From Sphingopyxis sp. LC363 (GTDB lineage: Bacteria; Pseudomonadota; Alphaproteobacteria; Sphingomonadales; Sphingomonadaceae): a stretch of DNA of 64,000 bases. This document shows positions 30,724 to 55,515 of this stretch, piece by piece. Location: NCBI RefSeq assembly GCF_000756385.1, contig NZ_JNFC01000001.1:1-64000 (forward strand), written 5' to 3'. Under the pieces are notes generated by a model that did no database searches, was not told the DNA's origin, and saw only the letters and a program-made list of their open reading frames with translations. Both the position numbers and the translations under genes were made by a program. Numbering within the stretch: the first letter of the stretch is position 1; each line of letters opens with the position of its first letter.

Positions 30724-31989
30724 ATGGCCAGCCGCACCGACGCTTCGAACCGCACCGACCCGATCGAGGCGCTGACCCGGCGCTTTGCCGCGACGCGGCG
30801 TCTGTCGCTCGAACTCGCGGAGACCCTCTCCGACGCCGACGCGAGCGCGCAGTCGATGCCCGACGCCTCGCCCGCCAAATGGCATCTCGCGCACACGACA
30901 TGGTTCTTCGAAACCTTCATCCTGCGCGACCATGTGCCGGGCTATGGCCTCTTCGACGATCGCTATCCCTTTCTTTTCAACTCCTATTATGAGGCCGAGG
31001 GGCCGCGCCACGCCCGCCGGCATCGCGGGCTGCTGACGCGCCCCTCGCTCGACGACGTGTGCGTCTGGCGCGCGCATGTCGATGCCGCGGTGCAGAGCGC
31101 GCTGCCCGACCTTCCGGCGAGCACGCTGGCACTGGTCGAGCTCGGCATCCATCACGAGCAGCAGCATCAGGAATTGCTGCTCACCGACATCAAGCATCTT
31201 TTCGCGCAAAATCCGCTCGGCCCCGCGGTGTGGAACGCGCCGATCGCGAGCGAAGTTCGGAAATTTTCCGCCATGAAATGGGTGAAGGGCGCCGAAGGCG
31301 TCGCCGCGGTCGGCCACGGCGGCGAGGGCTTCGCCTTCGACTGCGAAGGTCCGCGCCACGACGCGCTGCTCACCCCGCACGCGCTCGCGAGCCGCCCGGT
31401 CAGCAATGGCGAATGGCAGGAATTCATCGCCGACGGCGGCTATCATACCGCCGCGCTCTGGCTCAGCGATGGCTGGGCATGGGTGCAGGCCGAAGACGTC
31501 GAGGCGCCCGCCTATTGGCGGGACGGCCAGCTTTTCACCCTGTCGGGCTGGCAAGATATCGACCCCGCCGCGCCGGTGACGCATATCAGCTTTTTCGAGG
31601 CCGACGCCTTTGCCAGCTGGGCCGGCGCGCGCTTGCCGACCGAGCAGGAATGGGAAGCGTCCGCCGCGGGGCTTGATCCCGACGGCGGTCAGCAACTCGA
31701 CGGCGCTGGGCCGGTCCAGCCCACGCCCGCTGCAGACGACACCGATCTGCAACAGATGTTCGGCAGCGTGTGGGAATGGACCGGCAGCGCCTATCGCCCC
31801 TATCCCGGCTTCCGCGCCGCGCCCGGCGCGGTCGGCGAATATAATGGCAAGTTCATGAGCGGCCAGTTCGTGCTCCGCGGCGGCAGCTGCGCGACCCCGC
31901 GCGGTCATTGCCGCGCTTCCTACCGCAACTTCTTCTACCCCCACCAGCGCTGGCAATTCACCGGTCTGCGCCTCGCGAAGGATCTGTAG
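30724..31989 (+). CDS. egtB: Ergothioneine biosynthesis sulfoxide synthase EgtB
   Basis: A 421-residue non-haem iron enzyme that joins trimethylhistidine (hercynine) with a thiol donor. The N-terminal DinB-like domain has KWHLAHTTWFFETF (His54 and His57). It also has the iron motif H144-x3-H148-x-E150 in HHEQQHQELLL. The formylglycine-generating-enzyme-like C-terminal domain has SNGEWQEFIADGGY, LPTEQEWE and GSVWEWTGSAYRPYPGF, ending in FTGLRLAKDL. Whether the donor is cysteine or gamma-glutamylcysteine is not visible. A GGGGAA lies 11 bases upstream of ATG. Its stop codon TAG is made of TA plus the first base of an inserted MITE-like element. Confidence 0.94.
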   Translation: MASRTDASNRTDPIEALTRRFAATRRLSLELAETLSDADASAQSMPDASPAKWHLAHTTWFFETFILRDHVPGYGLFDDRYPFLFNSYYEAEGPRHARRHRGLLTRPSLDDVCVWRAHVDAAVQSALPDLPASTLALVELGIHHEQQHQELLLTDIKHLFAQNPLGPAVWNAPIASEVRKFSAMKWVKGAEGVAAVGHGGEGFAFDCEGPRHDALLTPHALASRPVSNGEWQEFIADGGYHTAALWLSDGWAWVQAEDVEAPAYWRDGQLFTLSGWQDIDPAAPVTHISFFEADAFASWAGARLPTEQEWEASAAGLDPDGGQQLDGAGPVQPTPAADDTDLQQMFGSVWEWTGSAYRPYPGFRAAPGAVGEYNGKFMSGQFVLRGGSCATPRGHCRASYRNFFYPHQRWQFTGLRLAKDL

Positions 31990-32252
31990 GACCTCCTCAG
32001 GGCAACAGGCCGGCTGAGGTTTGAAGCAAATTTGTTCGGTGCAAGGAGGAGCGACGAAGACATATGAATATATTTCGAGGCATTCCGACGCGGCAGCGGA
32101 CAAATTTGATCAAATCCCGAAGGGACGACAAAATGGCTTCCATCTCGAACCAAATGCCCCTTGGGCATGGAACCACTATTCCCGGCGGGTCATTTGGCCC
32201 GATATGTTCGCCATTTTGGCGCCTCAGCCGGCCTGTTGCCCTGAAGAGGTCC
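31989..32252. mobile_element. MITE-like element between egtB and egtD
   Basis: Terminal inverted repeats of 31 bases (31989-32019 and 32222-32252) match at 30 of 31 positions. They begin GGACCTC and end GCTGAGG. The element is 264 bases long, has no transposase and is flanked by TA on both sides (31987-31988 and 32253-32254). A TA duplication and TIRs are typical of IS630/Tc1-mariner relatives. The left border is in the egtB stop codon. Removing it and one TA gives TAA-CC-ATG, a tight egtB-egtD junction. No second copy was seen in this window. Confidence 0.8.
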
Positions 32253-32257
32253 TAACC

Positions 32258-33244
32258 ATGGGTGTTGTGCGCAACCTTCGTCAGGTTTCGGCCGATGACG
32301 CCGGCGTCGACATCGCCTTTCGCGCCGACGTCCACGCCGGCCTTGCGCAGCGGCAAAAGGCGATTCCGGCGCGCTGGTTCTACGACGCGACCGGCTCGGC
32401 CTTGTTCGAGGATATCACCGCGCTCCCCGAATATTATCCGACGCGCAGCGAAACCGACCTGCTGACGCGCCACGCCGCCGACATCGCCGCTGCGACCGGC
32501 CCCGACCGCGCGGTCGTCGAACTCGGCTCGGGCAGCTCGACCAAGACGCCCCTGCTCCTCGACGCCATCGCGCCCGCCGCCTATGTCCCGGTCGATATTT
32601 CGGGCGATTTCCTGCGCGACAGCGCGCTGGCGCTCGCGGCGCGCTTCCCCGCGGTGCCGATCTATCCGGTCGAGGCCGATTTCACCCAGCGGGTCGAATT
32701 GCCGCGCGAAATCTGCCCGCTTCCGAAACTCGGCTTTTTTCCGGGCTCGACGATCGGCAACATGGTCGCGCGCACCGCGATCGACCTCTTGCGGGGCTGG
32801 CGCGCGACGCTCGGCGACGGGTCGCTGATGCTGATCGGCATCGACCGGATCAAGGACATCGGCATACTCGAAACCGCCTATGACGATCCGGCGGGGGTGA
32901 CCGCCGCCTTCAACCTCAACCTGCTCGAACGCATCAACCGCGAACTCGGCGGCGATATAGCGGTCGAGAATTTCAGCCATCGCGCGGTCTGGGACGATGT
33001 CCACGCGCGCATCGAAATGCACCTCGTCGCCGCCTGCGACATGGATTTCACGATCGACGGCCGCGCCTATCATATGGCGAAGGGCGAAACGATCCACAGC
33101 GAGAACAGCCATAAATACGGGGCCCGCGACGCGAACCTGCTGCTCCGCGCCGGCGGCTGGACTCCGGTCGCGACATGGGACGATGCCAGCCCCGCCTTTG
33201 CCCTGATCCTCGCCGAAGCGACCGAGTTCCGCTCCGCCCCCTGA
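32258..33244 (+). CDS. egtD: L-histidine N-alpha-methyltransferase EgtD
   Basis: A 328-residue SAM enzyme that trimethylates histidine to hercynine, the first step of ergothioneine synthesis. FEDITALPEYYPTRSETDLL is the family signature near residue 50, VVELGSGSSTKT is the SAM motif, YVPVDISGDFL follows, and FFPGSTIGNMV is the histidine-binding region. IHSENSHKYGARD is near the end. I chose ATG 32258, with AAGAGG nine bases upstream. That ribosome binding site lies inside the right terminal repeat of the MITE. The open frame continues back into the element, but its sequence there has no EgtD similarity. An intrinsic terminator follows the stop. Confidence 0.94.
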   Translation: MGVVRNLRQVSADDAGVDIAFRADVHAGLAQRQKAIPARWFYDATGSALFEDITALPEYYPTRSETDLLTRHAADIAAATGPDRAVVELGSGSSTKTPLLLDAIAPAAYVPVDISGDFLRDSALALAARFPAVPIYPVEADFTQRVELPREICPLPKLGFFPGSTIGNMVARTAIDLLRGWRATLGDGSLMLIGIDRIKDIGILETAYDDPAGVTAAFNLNLLERINRELGGDIAVENFSHRAVWDDVHARIEMHLVAACDMDFTIDGRAYHMAKGETIHSENSHKYGARDANLLLRAGGWTPVATWDDASPAFALILAEATEFRSAP

Positions 33245-54287: not shown

Positions 54288-54315
54288 CAATCGACCTTGC
54301 CGATTGGTCCCGCCG

Positions 54316-55515
54316 ATGGCAAGCATGGGCATGACCAGCACACCTCCACCCGCCTCCGCAGTCGAGGCCAACCGGCTTGGCATCGCGGCCTTGCAGGCCG
54401 GCGACAATGAAGCCGCCGCGAACCATTTCGGCGCGGCGATCGCGGCCGATCCGCATTCGGGCGCCTTGCAGCGCAACCTCGCCTCGGCATGGCGCGCGCT
54501 CGGCGACGATGTCCGGGAGCTCGAGGCGCTCGATGCCGCGCTCGCGATCGATCGCCGCGACTTGATGGCGTGGATCCGCAAGGGCGAACGCCACGAGGCG
54601 CGCGGCGAAATGGGCTTGGCGCTCGCCGCGTGGAGCGCCGCGATCGCGCTCGGCGCGCAACTCGACCCCGTGCCGCCGCCGCTCGCCCCGCTGCTCGCGC
54701 ATGGCCGGGATTTCGTCGCGGGGGCGACCGATACGATGTTTACCGCGGCGTCGGGCGCGTTCGATGACATGCGCCGCGACCTGTCGGAAACCGAAGCGCG
54801 GCGCGGCCAAGCTTTCATCGCGAGCGCGCTCGGCCGTCGCCGCATCTATCGGAACGAATGCGCAGGGGTTTATTATCCCTTCCTGCCCGCCGACGAGTTC
54901 TTCGACCGCGGCCATTTTTCCTGGCTTCCTGAAATCGAGGCACAGACCGCCGCGATCCGTGCGGAATTGCAGGCGCTGCTCGACGACCCGGGCGAGGCGC
55001 TTCGTCCCTATGTGCGGATGGAGGCGGGCTCGCCCGAAACCATCTGGTCGGGTCTCGACAACCGGCTCGACTGGGGCGCCTGTTTCCTGTGGGAATATGG
55101 CGAGCCGAACCAGCCGGTGCTCGACCGCTGCCCCGCGACCGCCGCCGCGCTCGCCGCCATACCGGGCGCGCGCATTCCGGGCCGCGCGCCCAGCGCCTTC
55201 TTCTCGATGCTGAAACCGCACACGCGCATTCCGCCGCATACCGGCGTCACCAACACGCGCGCGATCGTGCATTTGCCGCTGATCGTCCCGCCCGGTTGCG
55301 GCTTTCGCGTCGGGGGCGAAATACGCGAGTGGAAGGAAGGCACCGCCTTCGCCTTCGACGACACGATCGAGCATGAAGCATGGAACGACAGCGACGAACT
55401 GCGCGCGGTGCTGATCTTCGACGTCTGGAACCCGCATATGACCGCCGGCGAACGTGAGCTTCTGCTGCGCTATTTCGCGTCGGCCGATGCGTCGGGCTAC
55501 GCCGTGCCGCGCTAG
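54316..55515 (+). CDS. TPR-linked aspartyl/asparaginyl beta-hydroxylase domain protein
   Basis: A 399-residue protein with two parts. Residues 10-130 are TPR-like helices (ANRLGIAALQAGDNEAAANH, LASAWRALGDDVRELEALDA), suited to holding a protein or peptide. The C-terminal part is a 2-oxoglutarate/Fe(II) beta-hydroxylase: IPPHTGVTNTRAIVHLPL with His308, GFRVGGEIREWKEG and FDDTIEHEAWNDSDELR with His353. FFSMLKPHTRIP is the preceding strand. Such enzymes hydroxylate Asp or Asn beta-carbons. ATG 54316, 54325 and 54331 are all possible; none has a clear ribosome binding site. It diverges from the sulfotransferase-like gene and lies before the three small secreted proteins. Confidence 0.85.
   Translation: MASMGMTSTPPPASAVEANRLGIAALQAGDNEAAANHFGAAIAADPHSGALQRNLASAWRALGDDVRELEALDAALAIDRRDLMAWIRKGERHEARGEMGLALAAWSAAIALGAQLDPVPPPLAPLLAHGRDFVAGATDTMFTAASGAFDDMRRDLSETEARRGQAFIASALGRRRIYRNECAGVYYPFLPADEFFDRGHFSWLPEIEAQTAAIRAELQALLDDPGEALRPYVRMEAGSPETIWSGLDNRLDWGACFLWEYGEPNQPVLDRCPATAAALAAIPGARIPGRAPSAFFSMLKPHTRIPPHTGVTNTRAIVHLPLIVPPGCGFRVGGEIREWKEGTAFAFDDTIEHEAWNDSDELRAVLIFDVWNPHMTAGERELLLRYFASADASGYAVPR

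Follow-up and report, generated by a model that had tools for sequence, protein, structure and literature searches.

The genes egtB and egtD of Sphingopyxis sp. LC363 are separated by a palindromic unit of 264 bp. How did this unit come to lie between them, and what keeps its two ends complementary? The locus lies in a window of 64,000 nucleotides (contig NZ_JNFC01000001.1, positions 1 to 64,000, forward strand), which is the whole stretch of DNA that was analysed and to which the coordinates below refer. Its features are as follows.

30724-31989, plus strand: egtB, encoding an FGE-sulfatase/DinB_2 protein (open reading frame; Pfam FGE-sulfatase and DinB_2)
31978-31982, plus strand: AAGGA inside the end of egtB, presumably the native SD sequence of egtD
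31987-32254, plus strand: the whole element with both flanking TAs (arm match; core matches in the same genome)
31989-32252: the element proper, without the TAs, 264 bp
31987-31989, plus strand: TAG stop codon of egtB, made of the target TA and the element's first G
31989-32015, plus strand: left variable arm, 27 nt, the 5' strand of stem P1
32016-32019, plus strand: GAGG, the conserved inner end of P1, with its partner CCTC at 32222-32225
32020-32114, plus strand: hairpin P2 of the four-way junction (consensus fold and covariation)
32115-32125, plus strand: short hairpin P3, TCCC-GAA-GGGA (consensus fold and covariation)
32126-32221, plus strand: hairpin P4, absent from short derivatives elsewhere (consensus fold and covariation)
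32226-32252, plus strand: right variable arm, 27 nt, the 3' strand of P1
32244-32249, plus strand: AAGAGG in the right arm, the proposed new ribosome binding site of egtD, predicted to be paired in the stem
32258-33244, plus strand: egtD, encoding a histidine-specific methyltransferase (open reading frame; Pfam Methyltransf_33)

The insert at the egtB-egtD junction

The original prediction described terminal inverted repeats of 31 bases, and alignment of the arms bears it out: 30 of the 31 positions match (31989-32019 against 32222-32252), the unit is 264 bases long, and TA stands on both sides. Including the TAs, the 33-nt arms (31987-32019 and 32222-32254) are 97% complementary; the left variable arm has a single mismatch to 32226-32252. 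The right TA is followed by ACC and the ATG of egtD. The ORF listing holds no frame of 80 aa or more within the element, which agrees with the predicted lack of a transposase. By that listing the element is short, ends in inverted repeats and carries no transposase gene, as a MITE does. An open frame does run from a TTG through the element into egtD (32021-33244), and an N-terminally extended EgtD would be possible on paper.

EgtD was matched in 55 of 60 genomes of the genus, its own included. The egtB-egtD junction was read at 56 loci, its own plus 55 others from 54 other genomes (G031 was read twice, and weaker second EgtD matches in G052 and G053 were left out). The insert is absent from all 55 other junctions. 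In 53 of them the stop and start codons are 1-4 nt apart, in one they overlap (L252), and in the last the aligned egtD start lies 15 nt from the egtB stop (L134). The closest relative, with 94% identity on the egtD side and 92% on the egtB side, has the junction TTTGACCATG. Removing the element and one TA from the LC363 junction gives GATCTG-TAA-CC-ATG; since the relative L251 reads GATCTG-TAA-CG-ATG, the presumed pre-insertion state exists.

Because the other junctions are empty (54 of the 55 overlap or are 1-4 nt apart) and L251 resembles the pre-insertion state, the claim of a once-tight egtBD operon was right. The proposed alignment of relatives thus went in favour of an insertion, and the case named as speaking against it, the same insert at every junction, does not occur. 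Empty junctions, TA flanks and a family elsewhere support a MITE-like insertion at TA which, judged from these alignments, is lineage-specific.

As foreseen, TA and the element's first G form a TAG in the egtB frame. The further idea of an insertion that repairs its own damage holds as far as the stop is kept, and involves nothing special, because any insert starting with G at the TA of TAA or TAG recreates TAG.

A family with variable, complementary arms

Elsewhere in the LC363 genome, 11 places resemble the core of the element (query 30-239) with 71-81% identity, five of them over part of the core, which makes 12 places with the egtBD copy. At all 11, at least the outermost 24 bases on each side are unmatched; in the copies that were inspected, one outer arm matches the other. 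A degenerate pattern scan of a sequence collection found at least 112 stretches, a minimum and no census. Among the matches listed, 78 of 80 titles name Sphingomonadales (Sphingopyxis, Tsuneonella, Erythrobacter, Novosphingobium, Altererythrobacter, Sphingobium and others), and the remaining two an alphaproteobacterial MAG and Thiobacillus. The pattern fixed GAGGTTTGAAGC and TCAAATCCC exactly, so that those columns are conserved by construction, as is GAGG; it misses copies with GAGGTTTGAGGC. Two pattern matches, one in a viral contig (L127) and one in Thiobacillus (L061), are without arms and are probably chance.

When a single element served as query (1e-12), matches came from at least 22 of 236 genomes of the order, in at least 8 of 69 genera, all of one family, and from at least 1 of 289 genomes in a sample of the class, the LC363 genome itself; both tallies are lower bounds, since two or three candidates were scored per genome. 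The element occurs in six plasmid records, and a phage search gave no match. By these similarities it belongs to a family scattered through Sphingomonadales. The nearest relatives of the egtBD copy among 80 genomes of the genus (E <= 1e-45, up to nine candidates scored per genome) are 88% (G056) and 84-86% (G039, G045, G019, G016, G060) identical to it.

The original prediction proposed to search sphingomonad genomes with the 31-base repeat for other copies and a parent IS. What it missed is that the 27-bp arms are no conserved sequence: they differ between copies and are complementary within each, and the left-arm letters at egtBD are not common to the other copies compared. The search has a divided outcome, with other family copies on one side and neither the same arms nor a parent IS on the other. 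No other compared locus matches the egtBD arm at 21 or more of its 31 bases, the nearest relatives fetched later carry other arms, and none of the loci compared is a donor with these arms. A repeat confined to this locus had been named as counting against the insertion, and among the loci compared it is literally so confined; the idea of an insertion survives, since it is the core that identifies the family and the arms differ yet covary. For one arm subfamily, the exact 18-bp ends were searched in 40 genomes; 12 gave any match and none showed a pair at IS-like spacing. The genome with 33 such ends has 13 pairs 249-250 bp apart and seven single ends.

Arm distance between copies averages 0.40, against 0.24 for the core. 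The two distances correlate (r = 0.58), and subfamilies with similar arms can be seen by eye. A young burst of 16 full-length copies with a median of six differences is found in G038, which is S. alaskensis by its plasmid.

Gapless alignment over 268 columns was obtained for 93 full-length copies, each required to match at 22 or more of 31 arm bases and to end on the right in one of a few CCTC-like words; the rows include two orthologous pairs (L030/L033 and L055/L099). The predicted consensus fold is a four-way junction in which an outer stem of 32 pairs, P1, closes P2, P3 and P4. Paired cells make up 98.2% of 8649, compared with 82.8% after shuffling and at most 42.8% when the fold is slid along the alignment. 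Two-sided changes affect 64 of the 93 pairs and 1260 cells; shuffled alignments have 327 such cells and slid ones no more than 208. In P1, 28 of 32 pairs covary and 97.0% of cells are paired. The shuffles ignore relatedness, and the fold beats its slid versions partly because it was derived from the same alignment. For the egtBD copy by itself (31980-32265), DNA folding predicts -89.1 kcal/mol where 200 shuffles give -42.6 +/- 4.3 kcal/mol (z = -10.7), a modelled stability far beyond chance. A search of Rfam with 31500-32600 gave three matches, all below the gathering score and none taken seriously, and five loci gave none at E 0.1 or better.

Comparison of copies at orthologous sites is free of the shuffles' weakness with relatedness. 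Seven orthologous pairs show 25 two-sided changes, each replacing one Watson-Crick pair by a different one, besides 36 one-sided changes. Since only 2.8 two-sided changes are expected under independence at the same sites, pairing has been restored after insertion. These pairs exclude an identical one (L007/L173) and those differing in length (L010/L177, L038/L091, L050/L085, L058/L086); L030/L033 and L082/L217 were taken as orthologs by matching downstream starts rather than by alignment of both flanks. Unpaired columns differ at 16.7% and paired columns at 6.6%, which correction alone fails to explain; the fold is therefore probably under selection as well. It is thus the folded shape, rather than the letters, that seems to be kept.

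The mismatches that persist bear on the level at which the arms pair. Selection on RNA should favour G-U, and the arms, with 44 G-T against 42 A-C mismatches in 2604 cells, show no such preference and are therefore read as a DNA-level effect; the equality points to pairing of DNA or to correction of one arm by the other. This strand-neutral picture fits the arms and not every stem. P2 has 165 G-T against 8 A-C mismatches, two wobble-rich columns included, and P4 has 26 A-C against 9 G-T.

Several copies depart from the common form. In one (L115, 3988-4169) the interior of P2 is reversed between its stem halves, by eye a hairpin flip. Short derivatives lack P4 and keep their arms (L010, L011, L024, L027, L028, L029, and further L040, L079, L086, L094, L097), and one site has a short copy in L010 and a full one in L177. 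Both the flip and the short copies, as read by eye, fit DNA hairpins. There is also a second repeat family, with other letters and the same anatomy of a long stem and three hairpins in a single-sequence fold (L204, 1200-1480). It occurs in G038 at G038:C2:1814040-1814275 and 16 further near-full places, 17 near-full copies of 96-100% identity, TA-flanked in the three printed; the LC363 genome has one partial match, at 72%.

Placement relative to genes

Insertion occurs at TA, mostly C/T-TA-A/G and often CTAG, and the TA target is seen at egtBD and at several other sites. Empty sites elsewhere read CTAG, TTAG or TTAA; three start-adjacent ones have no TA (L018, L072, L114). The empty counterpart of the L114 site lies in the window at 54315-54339, directly 5' of an ATG. 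The copies are dispersed and have empty sites that indicate target duplication, which would look the same as a 266-bp unit inserted between T and A.

For the gene context, 17 of the 125 pattern matches taken up were dropped (11 cut at a locus edge, three short with weak arms, one truncated, two chance), and removing five ortholog duplicates from the remaining 108 left 103 sites, which still include two copies that precede the same gene in two species (L030 and L033). Genes were called by a purpose-made codon-usage caller, whose calls at L004 and L012 look wrong. At 40 of 103 sites the stop codon of a sense gene falls at the left end of the element, and at 16 that of an antisense gene falls at the right end. 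The right end is placed -10 to +6 nt relative to a sense start at 28 sites, and the mirrored case is found at none. A caller-free test (100 codons) gives 30 starts against 5 and 37 stops against 21, a weaker start asymmetry than 28 to 0. Convergent genes flank 13 of the 103 sites.

In the 8-kb loci, stop codons hold 22% of non-coding YTAR sites and 11% of all TA. The young burst in G038 is near this background, with 5 of 17 copies at gene ends and 0 of 17 next to a start. Copies with both TAs intact lie at gene ends in 30 of 52 cases, above both the 22% YTAR background and the 5 of 17 of the burst. Start-adjacent placement is found in 22 of 51 copies that have lost a TA, compared with 6 of 52 with both (Fisher p = 0.0004), and in 28 of 103 sites overall, compared with 0 of 17 in the burst (p = 0.01). 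Our reading is that insertion is little biased towards genes and that retention favours start-adjacent copies in one orientation; given the 30 of 52 at gene ends, a preference for gene ends at insertion may exist. The egtBD copy, which is lineage-specific and start-adjacent with both TAs, does not fit a simple rule that only old copies lie there.

Nine of the 12 closest matches to the egtBD copy in other genomes could be parsed (all but L219, L220 and L224), and in seven of these an ATG lies within 4 nt of the right end. Examples are copies before an Fpg-type glycosylase and before a gene of the inositol-phosphatase family, at the same starts. In different genomes, copies lie just 5' of the start of the Fpg-type DNA glycosylase (L082/L216 and L217; identified by Pfam in L082 and by the same first codons in L216 and L217). 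Another lies 5' of the start of what is, by eye, a probable riboflavin synthase (L221). The 20 downstream proteins scanned show no common function; HD is the only notable family seen twice, and one protein, at L007, has no family.

Translation of egtD and the mechanism

How egtD is translated behind such an insert bears on two of the rival explanations. The original prediction held that the right repeat supplies a new ribosome binding site, AAGAGG. It lies 8 nt upstream of the ATG and overlaps a 5-nt SD match; its unpaired probability in the predicted transcript is at most 0.03 at five of its six bases, which would bury it in the stem, and such a right-side match occurs in only 2 of 29 start-adjacent copies, the egtBD copy among them. 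The claim therefore does not hold up well and is considered unlikely. Alternatively, the closed stem could act as a bridge that brings the native SD sequence, across the element from egtD, next to the ATG, with translation passing over the insert. AAGGA-TCTG-[stem]-ACC-ATG has nearly native spacing when the stem is closed, AAGGA is visible in 47 of the 55 other junctions, and the AUG is predicted to be unpaired more often than paired (0.81, 0.64, 0.52). Against this, four of the five bases of AAGGA itself are predicted to be paired within the stretch modelled, the orientation is left unexplained, and SD matches of 4 nt or more show no clear excess on the left of 27 start-adjacent copies: 41% there and 33% on the right, where random sequence gives 26% and typical genes 51% (n = 567). 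The bridge is thus rather doubtful.

Two further explanations concern the element as a whole. It could be a cis-regulatory leader, a structured RNA that selection on the transcript maintains, with mobility secondary. The strong orientation at starts (weaker in the caller-free count), the compensation at orthologous sites and the ATG close behind seven of nine relatives speak for a leader. Its arms, however, lack a wobble preference and are kept about equally whether or not a start is adjacent (1.44, 1.43 and 1.12 mismatches of 27 for 25, 28 and 25 copies in the start-adjacent and other groups); the downstream proteins share no function, Rfam gives no family at its gathering score, and 13 of the 103 sites lie between convergent genes. 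Such a leader is possible, with the balance against it. An ordinary MITE, finally, would have complementary arms only since both ends serve one transposase, and the compensation would reflect copying of young elements. TA flanks, the missing ORF, the burst of near-identical copies, the arm-core correlation and the similar-arm subfamilies agree with this; the arm letters, however, vary widely and, in copies sharing a site, have changed pairwise since insertion, and the reading is already disfavoured and quite improbable.

The explanation we hold to be likely is that a palindromic repeat, MITE-like and non-autonomous, inserted in this lineage only, and that its shape is kept. The unit of 264 bp, by its predicted fold a long terminal stem closing three internal hairpins, inserts at TA. 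A transposase or other machinery acting in trans would read mainly the extreme ends and the shape or junction, not the 27-bp arms. The arms may stay complementary largely through arm-to-arm correction of hairpin-forming DNA (template switching), with some selection on the fold in addition. At egtBD the position of the TA within the stop codon, which leaves both proteins intact, would make the insert tolerable, as would the closed stem, which puts stop and start side by side. Copies that directly precede a start codon, in one orientation, would be kept preferentially over time. More tentatively, there may be a whole class of mobile elements recognised by shape, with a four-way-junction DNA fold, arms free to vary if paired, in-place correction, and copies that later become start-codon leaders; the existence of the second family, built to the same plan, argues for a class instead of a single family.

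The letters of terminal inverted repeats are commonly regarded as what a transposase reads. Here arm letters drift and pairing stays, at dozens of loci and also after insertion, which offers a natural setting in which to ask whether recognition of a mobile element can rest on its shape. It also allows template-switch correction of palindromes to be measured in living lineages, and the natural stop-start insertions allow translation across a 264-nt hairpin to be measured.

By its sequence the element appears to work like a MITE, but terminal repeats that share their letters among copies are not found across the family. Several known systems resemble it in part. ERIC or IRU elements of enterobacteria are imperfect palindromes of about 127 bp without an ORF, intergenic, transcribed, targeted to TA and conserved in sequence; they reportedly affect nearby genes depending on orientation. 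The present element shares the palindrome, the missing ORF and the TA target, and its 264 bp, four-way junction and covarying arms set it apart from ERIC by description. Correia elements and RUP, also small repeats with TA targets, presumably depend for movement on transposases of the IS630 type acting in trans, and the letters of their terminal repeats are conserved. Unlike them, this family conserves only about the first three bases at its ends, and no IS was seen with the one arm type tested. The attC sites of integrons keep structure while sequence varies and are recognised as folded single strands; the element likewise keeps shape over letters and sits between a stop and a start codon, but it has three internal hairpins, no cassette array and no attC core motif noticed by eye. 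In phage T4, a hairpin between the SD sequence and the start codon can bring both together; at egtBD a hairpin lies in the same position, and here the hairpin is a mobile element.
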